From Chryseobacterium gleum (GTDB lineage Bacteria; Bacteroidota; Bacteroidia; Flavobacteriales_F; PHOS-HE28), in NCBI GenBank assembly GCA_945872795.1, contig CAMCAZ010000030.1, positions 1 to 43,657 of the forward strand: DNA of 43,657 nt, written 5' to 3'. Each line of letters begins with the position of its first letter. The stretch's first letter is position 1. The notes under the pieces were generated by a model. It did not search any database and was not told where the DNA came from. It was given only the letters and a program-made list of their open reading frames with translations. Both the position numbers and the translations under genes were made by a program. Of the stretch, positions 211 through 12,311 are shown in pieces.

Positions 211-297
211 CTTTTCCCGGGCTGTACACCCCTCCGATGGCTTGACAGGGTTAAGTTGTTACCTGCACCTTGCCAGAAAGTCCGTCAAGCCGCTCCC

Positions 298-558
298 ATG
301 ACCGATCCTGCACAGACCGAGTTCTTACTATATACCACTGCTGATGGGCAGGTGAACGTCTCTGTCCGGCTGCAGCAGCAGACAATTTGGCTTCCCCAGA
401 AGGATATCGCCACGCTGTTCGGCGTGGGCAAAGCCGCTATCAGCAAGCACCTGAGCAACATCTTCGAGAGCGGCGAGCTGGAGGAGGATGCAGTAGTTTC
501 CATTTTGGAAACTACTGCGGAGGACGGTAACAGCTACACGAGTAAAGTGCTGCGTTAG
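298..558 (+). pseudogene. RhuM-family protein, truncated N-terminal fragment
   Basis: Eighty-six residues from ATG 298 match the start of RhuM (virulence protein RhuM family) proteins: a short beta region (EFLLYTTADGQVNVSVRL), the motif TIWLPQKDIATLFGV, a helix-turn-helix-like AAISKHLSNIFESGEL, then TTAEDGNSYTSKV. Family members normally continue with a YNLDAIISVGYRV block and total about 300 residues or more. Here the frame stops at TAG 556-558, and none of the three forward frames downstream resumes that block. I therefore call a 3'-deleted remnant. An upstream in-frame ATG at 256 exists, but family similarity begins near 298. RhuM genes usually travel in genomic islands, which fits the neighbouring broken toxin gene. 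The remnant could still encode a small DNA-binding protein; I think that less likely. Confidence 0.7.
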
Positions 559-578
559 TCCCTTTGTATCTTCAATCC

Positions 579-911
579 ATGCCCAAGGCCAACCGACCCG
601 ACCGGCCACTGAAGGTGGTGAAGAGCACACCCAAAGTGAACAAGCACGTCAAGGTGTTCGACGCGACGAAGTTCTTCGGCACACTGCCCGACCTGAAGAC
701 CGAGGATCTTACTGCGATACGGCGCGAGATGTGGGGTGGAACGGACGAGGTGAACGAGCAGGCCTCCACCTACGAACGCACCACGCCACGAAAGCGGACG
801 AAGAGGGCCCCGAAACGTAAGGGCTACAATGCAAAGAAGTATACAGGCATGATCACCGGCATCGCTGATCGCATGGTTGAGTACTTGAAAACCGTTCGCG
901 ATGACCGCTGA
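579..911 (+). CDS. candidate antitoxin upstream of a PIN-domain toxin gene
   Basis: A 110-residue basic protein starting at ATG 579. An in-frame TTG at 564 is possible but overlaps a promoter-like CCTTTG. Its stop overlaps the PIN-domain toxin start by 11 nt (901-911), the usual tight arrangement of type II toxin-antitoxin pairs in which the antitoxin is first. A central stretch (HVKVFDATKFFGTLPDL, then IRREMW) resembles the short C-terminal toxin-binding segment of VapB/DUF2281-like antitoxins. The protein is longer than those (about 70-85 residues) and carries a Lys/Arg-rich region (TPRKRTKRAPKRKG) and a further helical tail. The antitoxin role is inferred mainly from position. I do not recognise the family, and the partner toxin appears inactivated. 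Confidence 0.5.
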   Translation: MPKANRPDRPLKVVKSTPKVNKHVKVFDATKFFGTLPDLKTEDLTAIRREMWGGTDEVNEQASTYERTTPRKRTKRAPKRKGYNAKKYTGMITGIADRMVEYLKTVRDDR

Positions 912-1275
912 GCGCGTGCTGGTGGATACCAACATACTGATCCACCATATCAGTGGGGACAAGCGCATAGAGAAGTTGCTCCAGGACCGGACCATCCACA
1001 TCTCTTTCATAACGGAAGTGGAGCTCCTGAGCTTTCCGGGCTACAGTGATGAAGAACGCGAGGCCATAAAGACCTGGTTGCGAGAGTTCATGATCAGCGG
1101 CGTATAAGAACAGATCAAGTCCATCGCGATCGATCTACGTGCCCGCTACCGCCTGAAACTGGCCGATGCTTTCGTGGCTGCCACGGCCGCTTACTGGAAC
1201 ATCCCACTGATCACCGAGGACAAACACTTCCGCAAGTTGAAGCAGGAGATCGCCTTGACCCTGGTTGAACGTTAG
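901..1275 (+). pseudogene. VapC-like PIN-domain ribonuclease toxin, interrupted by an in-frame TAA
   Basis: The frame from ATG 901 encodes a PIN domain: VLVDTNILI (Asp9), FITEVELLSF (Glu39/Glu41), then after a stop LKLADAFVAATAAYWNIPLITEDKHF (Asp89 and Asp107) to TAG 1273-1275. PIN toxins are Mg-dependent RNases with these acidic residues in the active site. A single TAA at 1105-1107 (codon 69) splits the gene, with no length change on either side, so a point change such as CAA or GAA to TAA explains it. The N-terminal piece alone (68 residues) lacks half the active site and is unlikely to be a nuclease. A sequencing error or readthrough cannot be excluded. The upstream candidate antitoxin overlaps its start. 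Confidence 0.8.
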
Positions 1276-1670
1276 GCGGCCAGCGCCATAATGGATGAGC
1301 ACTACTTTCCAGGCATACCAGAGTTATTCGAAGAATTCGAACAACTGCCCAGCACCAACGCATGGTGCAGGTGCTTGTGATGGGCAGTACACGCGATAGG
1401 TCCTTTGGTTCATCATGGCGTGACCCCCGATGCCAACGACCAGCGCACAAGATCGCTTCGTCTTGGGGCCTGCTTTCACGACATGCGTATGATGCCTTGG
1501 GTCGTGAAGTATTGCAGTCCCGCCTCGTTGAAGCCCGAACACCGCTGACCCTACCGACCGGCTGCATGTAGGTGATCGTCCTTCGTCAGGCAGGAGTTCC
1601 TTGAGCACAACGGCGCTTGGTGGTGCGTTGCAGAGTTGGCCTCCAACACGGCCCGCTACCTTCGCGACCC
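1276..1670. other. 395-nt stretch without a convincing gene
   Basis: Between the toxin remnant and the LOG gene I find no family-recognisable coding region. A 29-codon frame from ATG 1291 to TGA 1380 (MDEHYFPGIPELFEEFEQL...) has a plausible acidic composition but no supporting context. Other open frames here have no recognisable motif. The last 14 nt hold a promoter-like box for the LOG gene. Together with the two broken genes upstream, this reads as eroded accessory DNA. Confidence 0.5.
1657..1664 (+). promoter_or_regulatory. Bacteroidota-type -7 box upstream of LOG gene
   Basis: TACCTTCG matches TAnnTTTG with one change (T to C at the sixth position) and lies 6 nt before ATG 1671. A TTG at 1636-1638 sits 18 nt upstream, close to the spacing expected of the -33 element. 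If used, the transcript would be almost leaderless. Confidence 0.45.
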
Positions 1671-2429
1671 ATGACGCCACCTTCCAACAAACAGTACATC
1701 GACCTCAGCTTCCTTGAGGGTCCACGGTCCCGCTGGAAGGAGTTCCAGAGCGTGGTGAACATCTCCCGCGAGTTCATTTATGGCTTCCGCAAACTGCACT
1801 TCGTGGGGCCCTGCGTCACCTTCTTCGGTAGTGCGCGCTTTGCCGAGGACCATCCTTACTACAAAGCGGCGCAGGAATTGGCGGGGCGCGTTGGTCGAGT
1901 GGGTTTCACCATCATGACCGGTGGCGGACCCGGCATCATGGAGGCGGCCAATCGCGGAGCGCGCGAAGTGGGTGCCCGCAGTGTGGGATGCAACATCGCG
2001 CTGTCCATGGAGCAGTACACCAATCCCTACCTGGACGTGAGCCTCACCTTCGAACGGTTCTATGTCCGAAAGGTGCTGCTGCTGAAATACAGCGTGGCCT
2101 TTGTGGTGATGCCCGGCGGTGCCGGCACGGTGGACGAGCTCTTCGAGACAGTGACCCTGATCCAGACCGGCAAGGTGAAGAACTTCCCCATCCTGCTCTA
2201 TGGCAAGGATTACTGGGCGCCGATGCTGGCGCAGATCAATCGCATGATCACCGAAGGCACCATCGGCCAAAAGGAGCTCGAGTTCGTCTTCGTGGCCGAC
2301 AGCGTGGATGAGGCCACCTCACTGCTCCAAGACAGGCTGGTCGTGATGTGGCAGGAAGCCCGCAGTCGGAAGGACACCCCGAAGTGGCGGTTCCTGGAAG
2401 ACCATGTTAACGGTGGGTTAACAAAGTAG
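1671..2429 (+). CDS. LOG-family nucleotide hydrolase (TIGR00730-type Rossmann protein)
   Basis: A 252-residue cytosolic protein with the two hallmarks of the LOG ("Lonely Guy") family: GGGPGIMEAANRGA in the first half and PGGAGTVDE in the second. Characterised members cleave the N-glycosidic bond of nucleoside 5'-monophosphates (cytokinin riboside monophosphates in plants and actinobacteria, AMP or purine nucleotides in others). The physiological substrate in Bacteroidota is unsettled. ATG 1671 is chosen because the promoter-like box lies just before it and the family similarity (SFFGSAR-like CVTFFGSARF) follows after about 45 residues. An in-frame GTG-type start at 1617 would place the promoter inside the gene. 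It appears monocistronic. Its last codons contain two of the GTTAAC sites noted for the downstream receptor. Confidence 0.85.
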   Translation: MTPPSNKQYIDLSFLEGPRSRWKEFQSVVNISREFIYGFRKLHFVGPCVTFFGSARFAEDHPYYKAAQELAGRVGRVGFTIMTGGGPGIMEAANRGAREVGARSVGCNIALSMEQYTNPYLDVSLTFERFYVRKVLLLKYSVAFVVMPGGAGTVDELFETVTLIQTGKVKNFPILLYGKDYWAPMLAQINRMITEGTIGQKELEFVFVADSVDEATSLLQDRLVVMWQEARSRKDTPKWRFLEDHVNGGLTK

Positions 2430-2455
2430 GCCCCCAGCCTAACAGATCGTTAACG
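2406..2455 (+). promoter_or_regulatory. cluster of three GTTAAC palindromes, the last being CGTTAACG
   Basis: GTTAAC occurs at 2406-2411, 2417-2422 and 2449-2454 within 50 bp. The third is the centre of the 8-bp palindrome CGTTAACG (2448-2455), 74 nt before ATG 2530. The same 8-mer lies 82 nt before the downstream lipoprotein start (5475-5482). The first two copies are inside the last codons of the LOG gene. AT-centred palindromes should be infrequent in DNA this GC-rich. An operator role is inference. Confidence 0.35.
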
Positions 2456-2486
2456 CGGGGCCAAGGACCGGGTAACACCTGGGCTG

Positions 2487-2494
2487 GACCTTTG
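2487..2494 (+). promoter_or_regulatory. possible -7 box of the TonB-dependent receptor gene
   Basis: GACCTTTG matches TAnnTTTG at all positions but the first. It would start a transcript about 30 nt before ATG 2530, like several other genes in the window. This argues against the in-frame GTG at 2497, which would sit almost on the box. Confidence 0.35.
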
Positions 2495-2529
2495 CAGTGC
2501 GAAAGGCCATACAGGTCTTCGCATCTGCG

Positions 2530-5340
2530 ATGTACCGGATCATTACTGTATTCCTTGCACTCATCCTGGCCGGCGCACTGCTGGCCCAGAAGGGGACCAT
2601 CACGGGCACCATCACGGCCAATGAGGGTGGAAAAGTGCAGCCCATGCCCTTCGTGAACGTGGCCCTGAAGGGCACCAACACTGGGGGCACCACGGACCTC
2701 GATGGTAAGTTCAGCTTCCAGGCGGAACCCGGCGCGCATGTGCTGGTGGTGAGCTTCGTGGGGTATGAGCCCGTGGAACGGCCGCTGATGGTCTCGGCAG
2801 GAAGCTCCGTTACCGTCGATATCCTCATGGAGAGCGAAGGGATCGACATCAAGGAATTCGAGGTGGTCACCACCATGGACCGCGAGCGCGAATCGGCACA
2901 GCTCATGGAACGCAAACAGTCCGTTGCCCTCGTACAGAGCATCGGCGCACAGGAACTGAAGAAAAAGGGTGCCAGTGACGTCGCCGAGGGCCTCCAGAAG
3001 GTGGTCGGGCTCAGCACCGTCGGTGGCCGTTACCTGGTCGTACGTGGCTTGAGCGACCGGTACAATTCGGCCTACCTCAATGGCCTTCCCCTCCCCTCTC
3101 CCGACCCGGACATGAAGGTCCCACCCTTGGACATTCTTCCCACCGATGTGGTGGAGAGCATCTCCGTGACCAAGGCGTTCACGCCGGACCTGTACGGTGA
3201 TTTCTCCGGTGGTGCCGTGAACATCGCGACGAAACGGGCCACGGGCGAGAACATCCTGAAGGTGAGCCTCGGAGGGGGACTGAACACACGCAGCACCTTC
3301 CAGGAACAACGTTCCTATAACGGCGGTGGCAGCGATTTCTGGGGGCGTGATGATGGTACCCGGGCAGTCCCCCCCGGCGTGCTTTCGCAAGGCGTCGCGG
3401 TCGGTGGCGAGAGCCTCCCCTTCGCAGTGAACTTCAATCCCACCAGCAGCAAGGCTTTACCGGACCTCAATTTCGGGATCTTCGGCGGAACGAGCTTCAA
3501 ACTCTCCGAATCCATCAAGCTGAACGTCCTCGCCACGGCGAACTACCGCAACGAGAACAGGTACCGTGCCGGCAAGGTCCGCATCATCAATACGAACAAT
3601 ACGGCGCTCATCGACTACGACTCAGAGAGTTGGCTGTTCAACACGCAGTCCTCGGCACTCGCTTCCCTTTCCTTGGACCTGGGGCGTAACCACACGATCG
3701 GGTTCACCAGCCTCTACATGAACCTCTCGTCCGATGAGCACCGGATCACCTACGGCGATCACTTCGACTACAACGACAAGGTCTATGCCCGGCGCTACAC
3801 GTTCCGGCAGAACACCTTGATCACCAATCAGGTATCGGGTCGGCATGCCTTCGGCATCAAGGACCGACTGGTGGTGGATTGGAGCGGGTCCATGAGCACG
3901 GCGGATGCTGCGGAACCGGACCGCAGACAGCTGGTGTACCTCTACCAGCCTGGCGACAGCGAGAACGCTTACCGCTTCAATGCCATCGACCGCCTGGAGA
4001 ACCATCGCTGGTACAGCGACCTTCAGGAGGAAGAGACCGCCGCACGCGCTGGCCTGAGCTATCGCCTTGTGCAGCGCGAGACCGCGGACGGCATCAGCCC
4101 CGTGCTTGTGATGCGTACCGGCGCCCAACTGAAGCGCAAGGACCGCAACTTCGGCTATGACATCTTCGCTTACAGCCTGCAGACCGTCAACGCCAACAAT
4201 CCAGGCGGCGTTGCATTGAACTCCCCGGACGATTATCTGGACAATGAAGCTTACCAAGCCGATGAGTTCAACATCGCCAACCTGAGCGGACCCGAGGCAG
4301 ACCATACCATCCAGCAGGACATTACCGCCGGATACCTGGACGCTGAATATGATGTGGTCCCCTCCAAAGTGAAAGTCATGGGTGGTCTCCGCGTGGAACA
4401 AGGCGAACAGCAGATCCGCTACCGGAAGCAGAGCGATTCGTTCTACCAGGCACCACGCTTGGCCAGTATCTCTTCGGTGGACCTGCTTCCTTATGCGTCC
4501 TTGAAGGTGGACCTGACGACCAAGAACGTCCTGCGTGCCAGTGCGAGCAAGACGATCAGCCGTCCAGGGTTCCGCGAAATGGCCCCCTTCGAGTACACGG
4601 AGTTCTTCGCTGGCACCAAGAACGTGGGCAACCCCGATCTCCAGAACGGTGAGAACTACAATGCGGACCTTCGCTATGAGCGCTACCCCGCACCCGGTGA
4701 GCTGTTCGCCGTTGGTGTGTTCGGCAAACTGCTGGACAACACGATCGAGAAAGTGGCCATCGCGACCGCCAGCGGCCAACTGCAGTCCTTCCGGAATACG
4801 GGACGCGCTCAGGTAGCCGGCATCGAGGTGGAGGCCGTCAAGAACCTCGGAGCCCTCCTCGGCACCGATAGTGCCATCTGGAACTCGATCAGCTTCGGAA
4901 TGAACGCAGCCCTGCTCTATTCCGAATTGACCATCAACAAGGAACAGGGACCCACCACAGGGGCCGCAGTTGTCCTGACCAACGAGTCCCGGCCCATGCA
5001 GGGAGCATCACCCTACCTGCTCAACCTCGACCTGAGCTACGAGCGCACGTTCTCACCGGAGTTCAAGGGTACCGTCACCGTGGCTTACAACGTGTATGGA
5101 CCACGCGTCTTTGCTGCCGGTGCCAATGGCCTTGGAGACCAGTATGAATTACCTGTGAACACACTCAATCTCATCTTCCGTGGCGATATCGGCAAGCGTT
5201 GGCAGGCCAATCTGAACATCCGCAACATCCTGGATGCACGCTACCGCATCGAACAGGAGACCCCGAACGGCTCGTCCCTGATCAATGATTTCCGGGTGGG
5301 CATGAGCCTCGGCGCCGGTATCAGCTATCGCATCCTGTGA
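2530..5340 (+). CDS. TonB-dependent receptor with N-terminal carboxypeptidase-regulatory-like domain
   Basis: A 936-residue outer-membrane transporter energised by TonB/ExbB/ExbD. Order of parts: signal peptide (residues 1-19, ITVFLALILAGALLAQ), CarboxypepD_reg-like beta sandwich (about 20-105, PFVNVALKGTNTGGTTDLDGKF), plug domain (about 120-235, containing YLVVRGLSDRYNSAYLNGLP and GDFSGGAVNIATK), then a long 22-stranded barrel with DLTTKNVLRASASKTISRPGFRE and a C-terminal GISYRIL. ATG 2530 is preferred over GTG 2497 because the signal peptide begins there. The downstream lipoprotein gene is in the same direction, 224 nt away behind a hairpin. The pair recalls receptor plus surface lipoprotein couples such as SusCD, but the lipoprotein is not SusD-like. 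The substrate is unknown. Confidence 0.9.
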   Translation: MYRIITVFLALILAGALLAQKGTITGTITANEGGKVQPMPFVNVALKGTNTGGTTDLDGKFSFQAEPGAHVLVVSFVGYEPVERPLMVSAGSSVTVDILMESEGIDIKEFEVVTTMDRERESAQLMERKQSVALVQSIGAQELKKKGASDVAEGLQKVVGLSTVGGRYLVVRGLSDRYNSAYLNGLPLPSPDPDMKVPPLDILPTDVVESISVTKAFTPDLYGDFSGGAVNIATKRATGENILKVSLGGGLNTRSTFQEQRSYNGGGSDFWGRDDGTRAVPPGVLSQGVAVGGESLPFAVNFNPTSSKALPDLNFGIFGGTSFKLSESIKLNVLATANYRNENRYRAGKVRIINTNNTALIDYDSESWLFNTQSSALASLSLDLGRNHTIGFTSLYMNLSSDEHRITYGDHFDYNDKVYARRYTFRQNTLITNQVSGRHAFGIKDRLVVDWSGSMSTADAAEPDRRQLVYLYQPGDSENAYRFNAIDRLENHRWYSDLQEEETAARAGLSYRLVQRETADGISPVLVMRTGAQLKRKDRNFGYDIFAYSLQTVNANNPGGVALNSPDDYLDNEAYQADEFNIANLSGPEADHTIQQDITAGYLDAEYDVVPSKVKVMGGLRVEQGEQQIRYRKQSDSFYQAPRLASISSVDLLPYASLKVDLTTKNVLRASASKTISRPGFREMAPFEYTEFFAGTKNVGNPDLQNGENYNADLRYERYPAPGELFAVGVFGKLLDNTIEKVAIATASGQLQSFRNTGRAQVAGIEVEAVKNLGALLGTDSAIWNSISFGMNAALLYSELTINKEQGPTTGAAVVLTNESRPMQGASPYLLNLDLSYERTFSPEFKGTVTVAYNVYGPRVFAAGANGLGDQYELPVNTLNLIFRGDIGKRWQANLNIRNILDARYRIEQETPNGSSLINDFRVGMSLGAGISYRIL

Positions 5341-5385
5341 CCAGGGGTGGTGGCCAGCCCGCCGCTGCTATCCGCTGATCTCCGT

Positions 5386-5419
5386 GTACCGGTCGAAGGC
5401 TTCCGCCTTCGACCGGTAC
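5386..5419. terminator. perfect 15-bp inverted repeat between receptor and lipoprotein genes
   Basis: The left arm GTACCGGTCGAAGGC (5386-5400) and its exact reverse complement (5405-5419) flank a 4-nt TTCC loop, forming a very stable C(UUCC)G hairpin 45 nt after the receptor stop. There is no T-tract on either side. It could be a terminator or attenuator, or a 3'-end stabiliser that sets the ratio of receptor to lipoprotein mRNA. Confidence 0.6.
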
Positions 5420-5474
5420 TTGCTTGGGGATGCCAGCCTCCTTCCACGGAAGGATCTAACACAGGACCACCATT

Positions 5475-5482
5475 CGTTAACG
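5475..5482 (+). promoter_or_regulatory. CGTTAACG palindrome upstream of surface lipoprotein gene
   Basis: This is identical to the 8-mer at 2448-2455 upstream of the receptor gene, and at a similar distance from the start codon (82 nt here, 74 nt there). It is followed by an AT-rich stretch and TAAGGTTTG, which resembles a -7 box with one extra base. Shared control of the two genes is inferred. Confidence 0.35.
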
Positions 5483-5564
5483 TAAAAATAAGGTTTGGCA
5501 AATGCCATTTTAAGGTGGCGCCCGGAGCTTTGCTGCCACAGAAATAACGAACCCAGGATCGACC

Positions 5565-6893
5565 ATGCAACTGAACACCAAGACCCTGCCGAAGAGCCTG
5601 CTCTTTGCAGCACTGACCGCCGTGATCGCGGCCCCATTGACCTCCTGTAGCAAAAAAGAGGGATGCACCGATCCCACAGCGATCAACTTCGACGCTGATG
5701 CCGACAAGGACTGCTGCTGCGAATATGCCACCCCCGCCGCGGACCCCACGACGGTGATCAATGGTGTCACCTACTACATCCTGTCCGGCAACGTCAGCAG
5801 CAGTCGTACTCTGACGTCCGACCGTCCCTGGTTGATCTCCGGCGGTCTGTTCGTGACCAACGGAGCGACCCTTTCCATCCAGGAGGGAACCCGCATCTAC
5901 GCCGCTGACGACGCCACCACGCCGTTCCTGAGCATCCAGCGCGGCGCTCGCATCAATGCCGTGGGCACGGCCAGCGCACCCATCGTGTTCACCACCATCA
6001 AGACCATCACCGGCGGCGCCGATCGCGGGGCCTGGGGTGGTATCGTTATCAACGGCTACGCTCCCATCAACATCTGTGGCACGGCTGATTGTACCGCGGA
6101 AGGCGAAGGCGGTTCCGGCGTGTACGGCGGAACGGCCCCCAACGACAACAGTGGCACCATGAAGTTCGTACGGGTGGAATATGCAGGCAAGATCCTGGGC
6201 ACGGACAACGAACTGAACGGTTTCTCCTTCAACGGTGTCGGCGCTCAAACGGTGCTTGAACACCTTCAGTCCTACAAGGGCAGCGACGATGGCTTCGAGT
6301 TCTTCGGCGGTACCGTGAACCTGAAATGGGCGGTATCCTCAGGCAACAGCGACGACAGCTTCGACTGGACGCACGGATGGCGGGGGAAAGGCCAGTTCTG
6401 GGTGGTGCAGCAGGATGCCGTGACCGGTGACAACGGCATGGAGTGCGACAACTGGGAGACCAACTACACCGTCACTCCCTTCAGCGAGCCCATGATCAGC
6501 AACTTCACGCTGGTCGGTGCTGATGATGGATCCCCCAACCACGGCATGCGGCTGCGCAATGGAACCAAGGGCAAGCTCTGGAATGGTCTGGTCACCGGCT
6601 TCGCCCAGGGTGTGCGTGTAGGCAGCGAATGCGATGCCTATGTGGCCGACGGTTCGCTCTTCGTGAAGAACAGTGCGATCTATTCCAACGTCACCAACTT
6701 CAACAACGCCGGAACGATCGAGACCGACCCCACCAACAGCGTGGCAGGCCCTTCACTCTCCGGTTTCGTCGGAACTGAAGCGGTCGGAGCTGTCGACCCC
6801 TCGACCGTGGATGCCTGGTTCTCCAGCGTGTCCTACAAGGGTGCAGTGCCCGCTTCGGATGACTGGACCGCAGGGTGGACCTTGTCCCTTTGA
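5565..6893 (+). CDS. surface lipoprotein with beta-helix-like domain
   Basis: A 442-residue protein with a lipoprotein signal peptide (hydrophobic 12-25, lipobox LTSC, Cys28). The mature end begins SKKEGCTDPTAINFDADADKD, the Gly-Cys-Thr-Asp-Pro repeat motif common in Bacteroidota surface proteins and probably metal-binding. The rest matches a family often labelled "multidrug transporter" in databases, which is misleading. It has beta-helix-like turns (TLSIQEGTRIYA, GARINAVGTASAPIVFTT), then RGAWGGIVINGYAPIN, a YGG..PNDNSG block, GSDDGFEFFGGTVNLK and DDSFDWTHGWRGKGQF. It has no transmembrane helices apart from the signal peptide and cannot be a transporter itself. Adjacency to the TonB-dependent receptor suggests that it captures or presents a ligand. 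The ligand is unknown. Confidence 0.85.
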   Translation: MQLNTKTLPKSLLFAALTAVIAAPLTSCSKKEGCTDPTAINFDADADKDCCCEYATPAADPTTVINGVTYYILSGNVSSSRTLTSDRPWLISGGLFVTNGATLSIQEGTRIYAADDATTPFLSIQRGARINAVGTASAPIVFTTIKTITGGADRGAWGGIVINGYAPINICGTADCTAEGEGGSGVYGGTAPNDNSGTMKFVRVEYAGKILGTDNELNGFSFNGVGAQTVLEHLQSYKGSDDGFEFFGGTVNLKWAVSSGNSDDSFDWTHGWRGKGQFWVVQQDAVTGDNGMECDNWETNYTVTPFSEPMISNFTLVGADDGSPNHGMRLRNGTKGKLWNGLVTGFAQGVRVGSECDAYVADGSLFVKNSAIYSNVTNFNNAGTIETDPTNSVAGPSLSGFVGTEAVGAVDPSTVDAWFSSVSYKGAVPASDDWTAGWTLSL

Positions 6894-6938
6894 TCGATAA
6901 CTGAGTCCGGTACATCGCAACTGACCCGCTCGGTAAAG

Positions 6939-6966
6939 GAGAGGCCTCGCGCAAGCGGGGCCTCTC
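6939..6966. terminator. hairpin terminator between convergent genes
   Basis: The arms GAGAGGCCTCGC (6939-6950) and GCGGGGCCTCTC (6955-6966) pair with one wobble around a GCAA (GNRA) tetraloop. It lies between the plus-strand lipoprotein gene and the minus-strand membrane protein gene and can serve both. Neither side has a strong T-run. Confidence 0.65.
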
Positions 6967-6992
6967 TGCGTTCACCCCCCTGCCTGACGCGA

Positions 6993-7433
6993 TCAGCGGA
7001 CCAAGGCCAGCACTGCCGCATAGCGCAGGGCCTTGCCCAGGAACATGAACAGCGCGGTGGTGAGCAGATGCGTTCGGCCGAGACCCAGGGCGATGGCGAT
7101 GGGGTCACCGATGATCGGCAACCAGCAGAGCCAGGCCGCCCAGGCCCCATGGCGCTCCAGCCGCACGCGCCAGGCCTGTGCCTTCGCGAGATCGGTGCGC
7201 AACCATCGGGCGATACGGTCCGGATCACCCAGCCTGCCCAAGCCATAGGAACTCATACCCCCCAGCCAATTGCCCAGGCTGGCGACCACCCAAAGCTCCG
7301 GGGTGCCCCAAGGCCCCACGGTCATGGACAGAAGCACGAACTCCGAACTGAAGGGCAGGATCGTGGCGGCCAGAAAAGATGCCAGGAACAAGCCCAACAA
7401 CCCCATCTCCAGCCACCATTCCCCAAGTTCCAT
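6993..7433 (-). CDS. YqaA/DedA-type (VTT domain) inner-membrane protein
   Basis: A 146-residue integral membrane protein of the SNARE-associated/VTT superfamily. Helices are seen near residues 8-30 (LLGLFLASFLAATILPFSSEFVLL), 40-58 and 95-140. The signature LPIIGDPIAIALGLGRTH matches the YqaA branch (P-x-x-GDP). Related DedA proteins act in lipid flipping and membrane homeostasis, but YqaA itself has no firm assignment. I start at the ATG ending at 7433 because a TACCTTTG promoter box lies 28 nt upstream. A longer frame from 7481 would place the promoter inside the gene. It is transcribed divergently from the outer-membrane barrel gene. Confidence 0.85.
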   Translation of the reverse strand: MELGEWWLEMGLLGLFLASFLAATILPFSSEFVLLSMTVGPWGTPELWVVASLGNWLGGMSSYGLGRLGDPDRIARWLRTDLAKAQAWRVRLERHGAWAAWLCWLPIIGDPIAIALGLGRTHLLTTALFMFLGKALRYAAVLALVR

Positions 7434-7461
7434 AGCGATCAACGCCCCGTAGGACGTGCCC

Positions 7462-7469
7462 CAAAGGTA
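7462..7469 (-). promoter_or_regulatory. TACCTTTG -7 box for the YqaA-like gene
   Basis: On the minus strand TACCTTTG is an exact match to TAnnTTTG, 28 nt upstream of the chosen start. No clear TTG lies at the -33 distance. It decides the start codon of the YqaA-like gene. Confidence 0.55.
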
Positions 7470-7525
7470 CCCGCGCCGCATTCGGCATAGGTTTTGGTTT
7501 TAGTTTGCGTAGGAACTTTCTGACC

Positions 7526-8212
7526 ATGCGTGCCCTTCTGCTCCTCTCCACCCTGCTGCTCGGCCTGACCACCGTCGCCCAGCGGGAACCCCGGCAGCGC
7601 CGCACCGCTACAGTGGGTGGCGGTCTCGAGGTGGGCATTCCGCGCGGTGCCTTCAATGACAGCCTGGACAAGAACATCGTGGGCTTCAGCGCCAACTTCA
7701 CCATCCCCATGCGCCTCCTGCCCTTCGATCTGGGCTTTGATTATTCCTATGGCACACTGGCCAGCGAAAGCCAGGAGGTGGAGATCCAGGAGGAGGCGCT
7801 GACGGCCACCACCGGCGACCTGAGCATCCGCAGCACGGTGATGGGCTACCACGGGCTCCTGCGATTCAAACCCCTCAACGGGAAGGTGATGCCCTACATC
7901 GAGGGCATGGCCGGTGCACGACACTTCGCCACCAGAACGACCATCGAGGTGGAGGGCCTCGACGAGCCCCTCCGCGAGGAGCGCAACGAAACAGCGCTCT
8001 CCTGGAGCACTGGCTGGGCGGTGGGCCTGCAGATCGCACCGTCCCGGGCGTTCTACGTGGAAGGACGCGTGGAACGGCTCACCGGAAGCGAGGTGTCCTA
8101 CGTGGATCCACGTTCCCTGGCGATCACGGGCGACGGGACCATCTCCTACGACACGCGTAGCTCACGCACCCACGTACTGAACATCCACCTCGGCATCGGC
8201 CTCCGCTTCTAG
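7526..8212 (+). CDS. outer-membrane beta-barrel protein (OmpW/OmpA-barrel size)
   Basis: A 228-residue protein with a clean signal peptide (MRALLLLSTLLLGLTTVAQ), then alternating beta strands such as VGGGLEVGIPRG, VGFSANFTIPMRL, LPFDLGFDYSYGTLAS and VMPYIEGMAGARHF. The last strand ends LNIHLGIGLRF, with the terminal Phe expected of BAM substrates. Its size suits an 8- to 10-stranded barrel. ATG 7526 is chosen because the signal peptide starts there; an in-frame TTG at 7505 is possible. An imperfect -7 box (TTAGTTTG) lies upstream. No function can be read from the sequence. Confidence 0.8.
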   Translation: MRALLLLSTLLLGLTTVAQREPRQRRTATVGGGLEVGIPRGAFNDSLDKNIVGFSANFTIPMRLLPFDLGFDYSYGTLASESQEVEIQEEALTATTGDLSIRSTVMGYHGLLRFKPLNGKVMPYIEGMAGARHFATRTTIEVEGLDEPLREERNETALSWSTGWAVGLQIAPSRAFYVEGRVERLTGSEVSYVDPRSLAITGDGTISYDTRSSRTHVLNIHLGIGLRF

Positions 8213-8335
8213 AGCCGTTCGCCGGCCCGGCTGTTGGTAACCTTTGCGTAACACCTCAAGGCTTTCCGGGGCGACACGGTCCTTTTGGCTGTAAACTTGT
8301 GCCGTTATCCACGGCAACTTCGTACGCAGACCACA

Positions 8336-9865
8336 TTGGACGGGCAAAAACGTATCCAGAGCGCGCTCATATCCGTGTTCCACAAGGACGGGCTCGAACC
8401 CGTCGTCCGTGAACTCGACCGGCTGGGCGTCCACCTTTATTCCACCGGCGGCACGCAAACCTTCATCGAAGGCCTTGGGCTGGCCGTGACCCCCGTGGAG
8501 GACCTCACCTCCTACCCCAGCATCCTGGGAGGGCGTGTGAAAACACTGCATCCCAAGGTCTTTGGGGGCATCCTGGGCCGGCGTGACCTGGACAGTGATG
8601 TGGCCCAGTTGGAGGAATATGACATCCCCCCCATCGATCTGGTGATCGTGGACCTGTACCCTTTCGAGGCCACGGTGGCGGCTGGAGGAACGGAGGCAGA
8701 CGTGATCGAGAAGATCGACATCGGCGGCATCAGCCTGATCCGCGCAGCGGCCAAGAACCACGGCGACGTGGTGATCGTGCCCTCCATGGCCCACTACGCT
8801 GAACTGTTGCGTCTGTTGACGGAACAGGACGGAAACACCACCCTGGCCCAGCGCAAGGCCTTCGCCTCGGCCGCCTTTGCGGTCAGTTCCCATTACGATG
8901 GCGCCATCTACAACTGGTTCAGCCAAGGCAGCGGAGACCTGCGCCTGAGCGCCGGACCCACCCAGGTGCTGCGCTACGGCGAGAACCCCCACCAAAAAGG
9001 AGCCTTCCACGGCGACCTGAACGGCATGTTCGCCCAGCTCAACGGCAAGGAGCTGAGCTACAACAACCTCCTGGACCTGGATGCCGCCGTGGAATTGATC
9101 GACGACCTGGCCACCCTGCCGGGTGTACCGTTCGCGATCCTGAAGCACAACAACGCCTGTGGTGCTGCCGTGCGACCCACGGTGAAGGAAGCTTGGGAAG
9201 CCGCTTTGGCCGGCGATCCTGTGAGCGCCTTCGGAGGCGTACTGATCACCACGGCCCGCATCGACAAGGCCACAGCCGAAGCGATCGACCCCCTGTTCTT
9301 CGAGATCATCGCCGCGCCCGGCTACGATGCGGAAGCCTTGCAAGTGCTGATGAAGAAGAAGAACCGAATGATCCTGGAACGCAGGTCGGCCGCGCGCTCA
9401 CACATGAAGGTGCGCACTGCATTGAACGGCATCCTGACCGAGGAGACCGACCGGGTGGTGGCCAATTCCGGCACCATGCGCACGGCGACGACCAAGGCGC
9501 CGACCCCCGAAGCGGTGGCGGCCATGGTGTTCGCCACCATCCTGGTGAAACACACCAAGAGCAACGCCATCGTACTGGCCCGCAACAACCAGCTCCTCGC
9601 CAGCGGCACCGGCCAGACCAGCCGGGTGGACGCCTTGGAGCAGGCCATCGCCAAGGCCGGAAAGTTCAACTTCGACCTGAACGGGGCCGTGATGGCCAGT
9701 GACGCCTTCTTCCCATTCCCCGATTGCGTGGAGATCGCCCACAAGGCGGGGATCACCGCGGTGGTGCATCCGGGGGGCAGCATCCGTGACCAGGACAGCA
9801 TCGACTACTGCAACGCACACGGCATGGCCATGTGCATCACCGGCAACCGCCATTTTAAACACTGA
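8336..9865 (+). CDS. purH: bifunctional AICAR transformylase / IMP cyclohydrolase
   Basis: PurH catalyses the last two steps of de novo purine synthesis: formylation of AICAR by 10-formyl-THF, then ring closure to IMP. The N-terminal MGS-like cyclohydrolase domain has RIQSALISVFHKDGLEP, LYSTGGT and LGGRVKTLHPKVFGGIL. The C-terminal transformylase has RYGENPHQKGAF, LLDLDAAVELI and the catalytic ILKHNNACG, ending PGGSIRDQDSIDYCNAHGM. From TTG 8336 the protein is 509 residues, the usual length. The next start upstream (8285) adds 17 residues absent from relatives. No ATG lies in the right place, so a non-ATG start is needed. It lies 11 nt upstream of mreB, so it is probably co-transcribed with the rod-shape genes. 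Confidence 0.95.
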   Translation: MDGQKRIQSALISVFHKDGLEPVVRELDRLGVHLYSTGGTQTFIEGLGLAVTPVEDLTSYPSILGGRVKTLHPKVFGGILGRRDLDSDVAQLEEYDIPPIDLVIVDLYPFEATVAAGGTEADVIEKIDIGGISLIRAAAKNHGDVVIVPSMAHYAELLRLLTEQDGNTTLAQRKAFASAAFAVSSHYDGAIYNWFSQGSGDLRLSAGPTQVLRYGENPHQKGAFHGDLNGMFAQLNGKELSYNNLLDLDAAVELIDDLATLPGVPFAILKHNNACGAAVRPTVKEAWEAALAGDPVSAFGGVLITTARIDKATAEAIDPLFFEIIAAPGYDAEALQVLMKKKNRMILERRSAARSHMKVRTALNGILTEETDRVVANSGTMRTATTKAPTPEAVAAMVFATILVKHTKSNAIVLARNNQLLASGTGQTSRVDALEQAIAKAGKFNFDLNGAVMASDAFFPFPDCVEIAHKAGITAVVHPGGSIRDQDSIDYCNAHGMAMCITGNRHFKH

Positions 9866-9876
9866 TCGAACCGACC

Positions 9877-10902
9877 ATGAGCTGGTTCAACTTCTTCACC
9901 CAGGAGATCGCCATCGATCTCGGCACGGCGAACACGCTGATCATCCACAACGACAAGGTCGTGGTGGACGAACCGAGCATCGTCGCCATCGACCGCACCA
10001 CGGGCAAGGTCATCGCTGTGGGCCGACAGGCCCAGCAGATGCATGGCAAGACCCACGAGAACATCAAGACCATCCGGCCACTGCGCGACGGGGTGATCGC
10101 CGACTTCAAGGCCGCGGAGGACATGATCAAGGGCATGATCCGGATGATCAAGCCCGGCAGGCAGCTCTTCACCCCCAACCTGCGCATGGTGATCTGCATC
10201 CCCAGCGGGATCACCGAGGTCGAGAAACGCGCGGTGAAGGATAGCAGCGAACATGCGGGCGCCAAGGAGGTCTACCTGATCCATGAGCCCATGGCCGCTG
10301 CCATCGGGATCGGCATCGATGTGGAGGAGCCCATGGGCAACATGATCATCGACATCGGCGGGGGAACCAGCGAGATCGCGGTGATCGCACTGGGCGGTAT
10401 CGTGTGCGACAAGAACATCCGCGTGGCGGGTGACGAGTTCACCAACGATATCGAGGAGTACATGCGCCGCCAGCACAACATCCTGGTGGGTGAGCGTACA
10501 GCGGAGCAGATCAAGATCGAAGTGGGCGCGGCCATGACGGAGCTGGACAATCCTCCGCCCGACTATGCGGTGCGCGGACGTGACCTGATGACGGGCATCC
10601 CCAAGGAGATCACCGTAACCTACAGCGAGATCGCCCAGGCCTTGGACAAGAGCATCAGCAAGATCGAGGAGGCCATCCTCAGCGCCTTGGAGGCCACACC
10701 GCCCGAACTGAGCGCCGACATCTACAAGACGGGCATCTACCTGGCCGGTGGCGGGGCCTTGTTGCGTGGGTTGGACAAGCGCATCAGCATCAAGACCAAA
10801 CTGCCGGTGCACGTGAGCGAGGACCCGCTGCGCGCCGTGGCCCGCGGTACCGGTATCGCCCTGAAGAACATCGATCGTTTCCAGTTCTTGATGCGGGAGT
10901 AG
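9877..10902 (+). CDS. mreB: rod shape-determining actin homologue MreB
   Basis: A 341-residue, full-length MreB. It assembles ATP-dependent filaments under the inner membrane that guide the elongasome. The phosphate-1 loop IAIDLGTANTLI, MRMVICIPSGITEVEKRAV region, phosphate-2 IDIGGGTSEIAVI and adenosine motif YLAGGGALLRGLD are all present. The N-terminal MSWFNFF is hydrophobic and could act as a membrane anchor. It is the first shape gene after purH. The stop codon TAG 10900-10902 lies inside a perfect 28-bp palindrome, which may separate mreB expression from that of mreC onwards. Confidence 0.97.
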   Translation: MSWFNFFTQEIAIDLGTANTLIIHNDKVVVDEPSIVAIDRTTGKVIAVGRQAQQMHGKTHENIKTIRPLRDGVIADFKAAEDMIKGMIRMIKPGRQLFTPNLRMVICIPSGITEVEKRAVKDSSEHAGAKEVYLIHEPMAAAIGIGIDVEEPMGNMIIDIGGGTSEIAVIALGGIVCDKNIRVAGDEFTNDIEEYMRRQHNILVGERTAEQIKIEVGAAMTELDNPPPDYAVRGRDLMTGIPKEITVTYSEIAQALDKSISKIEEAILSALEATPPELSADIYKTGIYLAGGGALLRGLDKRISIKTKLPVHVSEDPLRAVARGTGIALKNIDRFQFLMRE

Positions 10903-10926
10903 GGGCGCATGATCATGCGCCCCTAC
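10899..10926. repeat. perfect 28-bp palindrome spanning the mreB stop codon
   Basis: The half-site GTAGGGGCGCATGA (10899-10912) is followed directly by its exact reverse complement (10913-10926). In RNA this gives a GC-rich hairpin closed by a small central loop, starting one base before the mreB TAG. No T-run follows. Likely roles are protection of the mreB 3' end, partial termination before mreC, or a protein-binding site in DNA. These are inference. Confidence 0.75.
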
Positions 10927-10959
10927 CCCGCATTGCCATACCGGTGATGCAACGGCCCA

Positions 10960-11790
10960 ATGCGCGACCTCTTCCGCTTCCTCTTCCGCATCCGGAACAC
11001 CCTGGTGTTCCTGCTCCTGCTCGCCTTCTCCCTCGTCCTGCTCGCCAACGGGAACGCCCATCACCGTTCCGCCGCCATCAGCTCAAGCAATGCCACCGTG
11101 GCCACCATCTACGGATGGCGGAAGGAGATCACCGACTACGCCAACCTCAAGGAGGTGAACCGCCGTTTGGCGGAGGAGAACGCGGACTGGCGCAACCGCC
11201 ACAGCAGCTCCTACGCCCCTGTCGAAGACCTTTTCGTGCGCATCAACGACACCATCCGTCGCCAGGAATACAGCGTGTTGACGGCCAAGGTGGTGAACAG
11301 CACCTGGCATAAGCAGAAGAATTTCCTCACGCTGAACAAGGGTGCCACGGCAGGCGTCCACGCGGACATGGGGGTGATCGGCAGCGCTGGCATCGTGGGC
11401 GTGGTGCGCGCCGTCAGCCCGCACTATGCGTCCGTGATCAGTGTCCTGAGCCCGGATATCAAGACCAGTGTTCAACTGCGGCGGACCGGCCATTTCGGCC
11501 TGCTCTTCTGGGATACAAATGACCCTCGCACGGCCTCGGTGATCGACATCGCCAAACATGCCCGGGTGCAGCTGGGAGATACGGTGGAGACGCGGGGTGG
11601 TGACCGCACCTTCCCCGCCGGCGTACCCGTGGGTATTGTGACCGAGGTGAACGCTCAGCCGGGCAGTAATTATCACGAGATCATCATCGAACTGGCGGAG
11701 GATATGACCCGCTCAGGATTCGTCTATGTGGTGAAGGACCTCCAACGGGCGGAGCGCGATTCGTTGGAAAAAGCCCATCAGCTCCCATGA
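10960..11790 (+). CDS. mreC: cell-shape protein MreC
   Basis: A 276-residue bitopic protein: short cytosolic tail (MRDLFRFLFRIRN), one transmembrane helix (about 14-29, TLVFLLLLAFSLVLLA), periplasmic coiled coil (about 55-75) and the two-barrel MreC domain (LTLNKGATAGVHADMGVIGSAGIVGVV, FPAGVPVGIVTEV). MreC scaffolds MreB, PBP2 and RodA in the elongasome and activates PBP2. The start is ATG 10960, 57 nt after mreB with the palindrome between. The final 4 nt (ATGA, 11787-11790) overlap the mreD start, implying coupled translation. Confidence 0.95.
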   Translation: MRDLFRFLFRIRNTLVFLLLLAFSLVLLANGNAHHRSAAISSSNATVATIYGWRKEITDYANLKEVNRRLAEENADWRNRHSSSYAPVEDLFVRINDTIRRQEYSVLTAKVVNSTWHKQKNFLTLNKGATAGVHADMGVIGSAGIVGVVRAVSPHYASVISVLSPDIKTSVQLRRTGHFGLLFWDTNDPRTASVIDIAKHARVQLGDTVETRGGDRTFPAGVPVGIVTEVNAQPGSNYHEIIIELAEDMTRSGFVYVVKDLQRAERDSLEKAHQLP

Positions 11791-12311
11791 TCACCACCAT
11801 CGGGGCCAACCTCCTGCGTTTCATGGTGCTGTTGCTCCTGCAGGTGCTGGTGCTGGACCATTTGGATGTGGCCAATGGCTACATGGTGCCCTACCTCTAC
11901 GTACTGTTCCTGCTGATGCTCCCGTTCGAGCTGCCGGAATGGATCACCCTGCCGATCGGCGCCTTCACCGGGCTGGTGCTGGACACCTTCAGCAGCACCC
12001 CTGGCATGCACATGAGCGCCTGTGTGGTGATGATGTTCGCCCGCATCCACCTGCTGCGCCTGCTGGCACCGCGGGAGGGCTATGAATACGGCATGCGTCC
12101 CACCATCCCCGGCATGGGGATCACCTGGTTCATCACCTATGCAGGCGTGCTCATCCTGGTGCATCACCTCTGGCTTTTCTTCGTGGAACTGTTCCGATTC
12201 GAGCGCTTCTTCGGCACCTTCTTCCGCGCCGTTCTCAGTGGGGCCTTCACCCTGGTGCTGGTCCTCCTGGCCCAGTTCCTCACCTCACGGCCCAGCCGCG
12301 ACCGGTCATGA
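11787..12311 (+). CDS. mreD: rod shape-determining membrane protein MreD
   Basis: A 174-residue, strongly hydrophobic protein with about five transmembrane helices (e.g. LLRFMVLLLLQVLVLDHL, YLYVLFLLMLPFELP, FITYAGVLILVHHLWLFF, SGAFTLVLVLLAQFL). MreD is an inner-membrane elongasome component. Sequence conservation is weak, so size, topology and position between mreC and the PBP2 gene carry the call. Both ends overlap neighbours by ATGA (11787-11790 and 12308-12311). Confidence 0.93.
   Translation: MITTIGANLLRFMVLLLLQVLVLDHLDVANGYMVPYLYVLFLLMLPFELPEWITLPIGAFTGLVLDTFSSTPGMHMSACVVMMFARIHLLRLLAPREGYEYGMRPTIPGMGITWFITYAGVLILVHHLWLFFVELFRFERFFGTFFRAVLSGAFTLVLVLLAQFLTSRPSRDRS

Follow-up and report, generated by a model that had tools for sequence, protein, structure and literature searches.

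A receptor and beta-helix lipoprotein gene pair of Chryseobacterium gleum as a candidate phosphate-starvation uptake unit

A 43,657-nucleotide stretch of Chryseobacterium gleum DNA (contig CAMCAZ010000030.1 of assembly GCA_945872795.1, positions 1 to 43,657, hereafter called the window) encodes a TonB-dependent receptor (TBDR) followed by a lipoprotein with a predicted beta-helix body. We consider it probable, at roughly 0.6, that the two proteins belong to a phosphate-starvation regulon and work as an uptake unit of two parts in the outer membrane. The proposal that they capture and import a phosphorus nutrient is made because the two genes are adjacent both here and in distant bacteria, in phosphate-starvation settings, and phosphorus is the most likely substrate class. 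Judging by locus layout and family, the pair is a new member of the known but little-studied ElpS/FI-type pairs of phosphate starvation and is not a new kind.

In many soils and waters growth is limited by phosphorus, yet little is known of the way in which large or anionic phosphorus compounds pass the outer membrane. If the two proteins do form a capture-and-import couple, a very common and functionally unlabelled lipoprotein family would gain a role, separate observations in Caulobacter and Flavobacterium would be joined, and lipoprotein deletion mutants already published would allow a direct test of the phosphorus ligand.

Conserved pairing of receptor and lipoprotein

A family-profile scan of GTDB genomes returned 493 relatives, the best 80 of which were kept as named loci. 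These 80 come from Bacteroidota, Gammaproteobacteria, Acidobacteria, Myxococcota, Planctomycetota, Poribacteria and other taxa. On crude longest-open-reading-frame gene calls, and with locus counts that are non-independent because the genomes are related, a TBDR adjoins the lipoprotein gene in 71 of the 80 loci (58 upstream and 13 downstream, on one strand with a gap of less than 1 kb). The TBDR lies 2-4 kb away in three further loci and was not found in six. The TBDR, lipoprotein and regulator profiles behind these counts were built partly from loci that were later counted.

When 58 genomes were searched with both window proteins, 52 gave a lipoprotein match; the 49 used further have strong matches, with G041, G048 and G056 (weak matches, E 1e-6 to 1e-7) left out. 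The best TBDR match lies within 1 kb and on the same strand as the lipoprotein gene in 35 of the 49 genomes, upstream in 32 and downstream in three. It lies at 1.5-5 kb in six genomes and on another contig in eight; in six of these eight the lipoprotein gene is the one at the end of its contig. The first-pass annotation of this DNA had placed a TBDR before a lipoprotein; both open reading frames are as it gave them, on the plus strand, and the co-occurrence of the two families in other genomes, which it had named as a check, is borne out by these surveys.

The two proteins also co-vary. Their distance matrices correlate with r 0.83 (62 pairs), against at most 0.11 after shuffling. Across 17 loci the correlation is 0.94 for lipoprotein and TBDR, 0.72 for lipoprotein and response regulator, and 0.79 for TBDR and response regulator. 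The duplicate loci L121, L154 and L175 were dropped from this test, as they were from the residue counts and the 74-promoter scan below.

The lipoprotein family itself is widespread, with a match (E <=1e-3, some weak) in 248 of 256 Bacteroidia genomes. The Bacteroides fragilis locus L107 has a TBDR gene followed by two tandem family lipoprotein genes, beside a gene for a 919-residue kinase-like protein. The C. gleum genome holds a second copy at L035 (G000:C11:1-16000, 263-12193, minus strand), where an OMP_b-brl_3 receptor, two proteins sorted by the type IX secretion system (T9SS), a family lipoprotein and one more T9SS protein are encoded; this content is similar to that of the PUSIII cluster of Flavobacterium johnsoniae.

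Promoter repeats and the intergenic hairpin

Tandem TTAAC half-sites precede both genes (Table 1). PhoB and PhoP sites are direct repeats at 11 bp, and the -7 promoter consensus of Bacteroidota is TAnnTTTG. A DAP-seq (DNA affinity purification sequencing) consensus of TTTAACA is reported for PhoP of Riemerella (PMC9603813).

Table 1. Features of the receptor-lipoprotein region, in window coordinates
Feature	Position	Strand	Detail or basis
Pho-box-like site 1, TBDR promoter	2404-2426	+	TTAACGGTGGGTTAAC at 2407-2422; pair of TTAAC half-sites with an 11-bp period
Pho-box-like site 2, TBDR promoter	2439-2454	+	CTAACAGATCGTTAAC, one mismatch
Candidate -7 promoter element of TBDR	2487-2494	+	GACCTTTG; similar in three orthologues; putative
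TonB-dependent receptor (TBDR)	2530-5340	+	ATG start; 936 residues
Carboxypeptidase-D-like N-terminal domain of TBDR, PF13715 (CarbopepD_reg_2)	2599-2862	+	Pfam
TBDR plug domain, PF07715	2920-3219	+	Pfam
Perfect 15-bp hairpin between TBDR and lipoprotein genes	5386-5419	+	Sequence
Pho-box-like site, lipoprotein promoter	5477-5492	+	TTAACGTAAAAATAAG; 8/10 half-site letters
Candidate -7 promoter element of lipoprotein gene	5525-5532	+	GAGCTTTG; similar in relatives; putative
ElpS/FI-type beta-helix lipoprotein	5565-6893	+	442 residues; starts 224 bases after TBDR
Lipobox LTSC, predicted lipidated Cys28	5637-5648	+	Sequence; C28 nearly invariant in alignment A2
GCTDPTAINFDADADKD linker motif (GCTDP), residues 33-49	5661-5711	+	Sequence
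Right-handed parallel beta-helix body, residues 57-430	5733-6854	+	Predicted model, structural alignment
Conserved acidic ladder D241 D242 E245 / D263 D264 D267, plus E293, D295	6285-6449	+	Conservation

Among 74 Bacteroidota TBDR promoters, 48 contain TTAAC-N6-TTAAC at 9-10 of 10 letters. Thirteen other spacings reach that score in 1-16 of the 74, and four permuted half-sites do so in 2-5. The best site is on the coding strand in 62 of the 74, and the median distance to the start is 95 bases. Lipoprotein promoters show the same 11-bp peak more weakly (29 of 95, versus 3-12 for controls). Within the genus, all 15 promoters score at least 8/10 at the 11-bp period, compared with 23 of 231 other genes, a comparison set chosen without matching for intergenic position; the single DUF47 gene in the genus set scored 6/10, its start being probably misplaced. 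At 12 gammaproteobacterial loci, E. coli-type TGTCA repeats give a modest peak at period 11 (mean 8.33 versus 7.3-7.9).

Elsewhere in the C. gleum genome, a second perfect TTAAC repeat stands before a DUF47-PiT phosphate transporter operon (L048), genus relatives of which carry GTTAAG repeats upstream. A profile search of the same genome for PstS (PF12849) found none, and phosphate uptake in this organism may rest on the DUF47-PiT system with its upstream TTAAC repeat.

The intergenic hairpin is a probable terminator or attenuator, and each gene is probably transcribed from a promoter of its own, with this terminator-like structure between them. At the corresponding position, five of six relatives have different strong hairpins and L006 has a weak one. 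A dispersed repeat was considered and dismissed: the hairpin is present in a single copy in the genome, and those of relatives differ from it.

Phosphate-related gene neighbourhoods

An OmpR/PhoB-type regulator is encoded within 4 kb of the pair in 19 of the 80 named loci, accompanied by a PhoR-like kinase in 13. Ten pair-adjoining regulators were scanned; PhoB models are the best match for nine, and the tenth has no match at the strict limit used. The regulator from Rheinheimera exceeds the cut-off of the NCBIfam PhoB model TIGR02154. Kinase and regulator genes are divergent to the TBDR-lipoprotein genes in all four genomes of one genus (G094, G118, G176 and G209), and this layout also occurs at Chryseobacterium loci. 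A PiT transporter lies within 10 kb of the pair in five of the 80 named loci and also in G008, G005 and G039.

No phoBR genes adjoin the window pair. The best PhoB-like regulator match of this organism is on another contig and is 71% identical to the regulator near a same-genus pair. Directly after the lipoprotein gene, as in relatives, there is a VTT/DedA-type gene (6993-7481, minus strand). The dedA promoter was a target of PhoP in an electrophoretic mobility shift assay reported for Riemerella (PMC9603813).

Receptor and lipoprotein structure

The TBDR could also start at a GTG at 2497, but the ATG at 2530 gives a better signal peptide. The TBDR sequence shows a signal peptide and, by Pfam, a carboxypeptidase-D-like domain followed by a plug, and the barrel is visible in the predicted model alone (mean predicted local distance difference test score, pLDDT, 84.4). 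The N-terminal domain had been called regulatory-like; this stands in so far as it has the ordinary carboxypeptidase-D "regulatory-like" fold, but it is not a signalling domain. The closest curated subfamily is TIGR01782 (E 1.5e-56, under its cut-off). The SusC/RagA model TIGR04056 aligns to the N-terminus only, with 57.8 bits against a cut-off of 368.25.

XusA is the sole sequence relative of the window TBDR in a PDB sequence search, and the predicted model is similar to receptors for siderophores and haem, PhuR and FecA among them. These resemblances, together with the fact that XusAB is an iron couple (PMC13142918), could be taken to mean that the pair imports a non-phosphorus nutrient, for example an iron chelate. 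We regard this as very unlikely: generic TBDR resemblance reveals little of the substrate, the promoter repeats and the PhoBR and PiT neighbours argue otherwise, and phosphate-only induction is reported for the FI and FII loci (PMC8115612).

The lipoprotein carries the lipobox, GCTDP motif and beta-helix-like body that the first-pass annotation had described, and the beta-helix is confidently predicted. An AlphaFold2 model built on a 36-sequence alignment is a right-handed beta-helix with a mean pLDDT of 88.1 and a predicted TM-score of 0.85. Searches of Pfam (E 0.1) and PHROGs with the protein gave no match, NCBIfam gave none above a cut-off, a PDB sequence search with the protein or its profile found no relative, and Foldseek with the model returned nothing below 1e-3. 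The assignment to the beta-helix class rests on model strands and VIA-align, because the PDB sequence and Foldseek searches yielded none. VIA-align Z values of ~20-23 were obtained alike for alginate epimerases (~23), NosD, PL6/PL9 enzymes and phage tailspikes; since Z is similar across epimerases, lyases and tailspikes, the fold class is clear and function is not deducible from it. The first-pass annotation took the family to be mislabelled "multidrug transporter" and stated that the protein cannot transport; the second point agrees with these results, and a transporter function is rejected on the same grounds. Membership in GH28 or pectate lyase families was likewise rejected, as no Pfam family matches at E 0.1 and fold class alone is held in common.

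In annotated records, relatives are named hypothetical, MreB or Ig-like; the family lipoprotein on a Hymenobacter plasmid (L229 6860-8293), for example, is labelled cell shape-determining protein MreB, an evident misnomer. The GCTDP motif was considered as a family signature but occurs in only 15 of 121 called family genes and is a clade-level linker. In L022 (G055:C27) an EGF-like Cys-rich stretch takes its place, as though the stalk that joins the beta-helix to the lipid anchor could be exchanged. Many proteobacterial family proteins are 2-3 times the length of the window protein, with 956 residues in L227 (7477-10347) and 1362 in L228 (5184-9272), and further long examples in L112, L114, L117, L126, L127, L131 and L133-L135. 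These long relatives probably contain more than one beta-helix unit.

The two triplets of the acidic ladder, D241/D242/E245 and D263/D264/D267, are offset by one 22-residue step. Each ladder residue is kept in 104-117 of 121 family genes, and the ladder residues are identical in four plasmid-borne relatives from three classes. DDxxD ladders of this type bind calcium in pectate lyase Pel9A. From its conservation, the ladder is the best candidate for a ligand or metal site of the lipoprotein.

The same residues could instead belong to a surface enzyme on a beta-helix scaffold, either a phosphodiesterase or a lyase that acts on a phosphorylated polymer, whose product the receptor imports with no stable complex between the two. 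Most fold neighbours are polysaccharide lyases, epimerases, hydrolases and tailspikes, and N and R residues are conserved along with the ladder. In addition, overproduction of ElpS increased secreted alkaline phosphatase activity (PMC2996285), and PMC8115612 put forward the idea that plant-wall material is bound or hydrolysed. However, the lipoprotein matches no Pfam hydrolase or lyase family, no histidine occupies an invariant or nearly invariant column of alignment A2, and fold alone does not show function. An enzymatic role seems to us possible and rather unlikely.

Proposed mechanism

If the pair is an uptake unit, a PhoB-type response regulator would, at low phosphate, bind the tandem TTAAC repeats before both genes, and the TBDR and lipoprotein genes would be switched on separately. 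With a hairpin between the genes, the lipoprotein could therefore be made in excess, which would fit the excess of XusB (PMC13142918) and the abundance of FI in the exoproteome (PMC8115612). Anchored at the cell surface, the lipoprotein would capture a phosphorus-containing ligand, probably via its acidic and possibly calcium- or metal-loaded ladder. The TonB-driven receptor would then take over the ligand and import it, in the way that BtuB receives its ligand from BtuG and XusA from XusB. By analogy with these couples, a role as lid or capturing protein in physical contact with the receptor is plausible.

Several observations weigh against this proposal. In the four genomes of the genus named above, 12 of 16 family lipoproteins have no such TBDR beside them. 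The perfect repeat has seven strand matches in the C. gleum genome, barely more than the three of a reversed control, and four of the six perfect sites in this genome lack an evident phosphate link. A PiT-promoter matrix gives 17.9 bits at the window site, but in 20 shufflings of the window this score was exceeded at least once (19.5). This matrix is itself selected for the motif, because it was built from 15 of 25 loci only: the own-genome locus (L054) was excluded on purpose, L060 is truncated, L062, L068 and L072 have no visible site, and L073-L077 have no recognised start. Nine of the ten scanned regulators, from Bacteroidota and others, fall below the PhoB equivalog cut-off or are unlisted. 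In Caulobacter, expression of cc0171 is reported to be constitutive, its deletion left ElpS production unchanged, and ElpS is released by a step that depends on the type II secretion system (T2SS) (PMC2996285); FI is described as an abundant exoprotein (PMC8115612). By analogy, such release and abundance would be as compatible with a free protein as with a lid.

These data raise the alternative that both proteins take part in the Pho response and act apart, the lipoprotein as a released scavenger or surface protein and the receptor as importer of something else. Orphan lipoprotein copies, the two probable promoters with a hairpin between them, and the release of ElpS and separate regulation of cc0171 (PMC2996285) would all accommodate it. 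Pairing over many phyla in both gene orders, and the tight co-variation of lipoprotein and TBDR distances, make this quite unlikely.

We retain the phosphate-starvation uptake unit as the preferred reading. More tentatively, and with somewhat less than even confidence, a beta-helix lid whose acidic, metal-loaded ladder catches phosphate esters or phosphorylated polymers may represent a further fold class of lipoprotein cap, common to Bacteroidota, Proteobacteria, Acidobacteriota, Myxococcota and others. If so, lipoprotein-capped uptake would extend beyond Bacteroidota as well as beyond the propeller and SusD folds, and phosphorus would be a dedicated substrate class of such systems.

Comparison with known systems

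The first-pass annotation had supposed the substrate class to be undescribed. This does not hold, as ElpS/Cc0171, and also FI/FII with their neighbouring low-phosphate TonB-dependent transporters (TBDTs), look like the same kind as the window pair and point to phosphorus (PMC2996285, PMC8115612). The tie to them is one of locus layout and family rather than direct alignment. In the literature searched, we found no test of complex or ligand for this type of pair.

In Caulobacter crescentus the reported gene order is elpS (cc0170), cc0171 (the TBDR) and gsp genes, and ElpS is a surface lipoprotein of phosphate starvation (PMC2996285). Two alphaproteobacteria, Sphingomonas parapaucimobilis and Indioceanicola profundi, carry homologues of the window pair in this lipoprotein-TBDR-T2SS order. 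The window lipoprotein matches theirs by phmmer at E 1.3e-43 and 4.6e-111, respectively (small set), and these ElpS-type relatives share its acidic residues. In contrast, the window pair is TBDR-first and has no T2SS beside it.

The FI, FII and FIII pairs of F. johnsoniae (PUSIII, PUSIV) combine a TBDT carrying Plug and PF13715 domains with a pectin-lyase-like lipoprotein, as the window pair does, and these lipoproteins are reported to resemble ElpS (PMC8115612). Within Fjoh_0543-0546, the FII lipoprotein Fjoh_0546 and the receptor Fjoh_0545 are described as rising under phosphate depletion (PMC8115612). Colony spreading is reported to be unchanged in F. johnsoniae lacking Fjoh_0546 or Fjoh_3856 (PMC7807042); Fjoh_3857 is another TBDT of this species. 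The FII pair has an adjoining PhoBR (PMC8115612); relatives with that layout were found, whereas the window pair lacks it.

An outer-membrane receptor with a lipoprotein partner also recalls SusCD. Membership was rejected, as the lipoprotein has no Pfam match, the TBDR fails the SusC cut-off, and a profile search of the C. gleum genome did not find SusD (PF14322), which was positive in one of 14 control genomes (a Bacteroides); the couple had rightly been described as one without SusD. XusAB (9GBC) and BtuBG of Bacteroides are SusD-free TBDTs capped by a surface lipoprotein (PMC13142918, PMC10404256). Their lipoproteins are beta-propellers and their reported ligands are siderophores and vitamin B12, whereas the window lipoprotein is modelled as a beta-helix. 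A receptor-lipoprotein complex is proven for XusAB and BtuBG only; if it is likewise capped, the window pair would extend this arrangement to a different lipoprotein fold.

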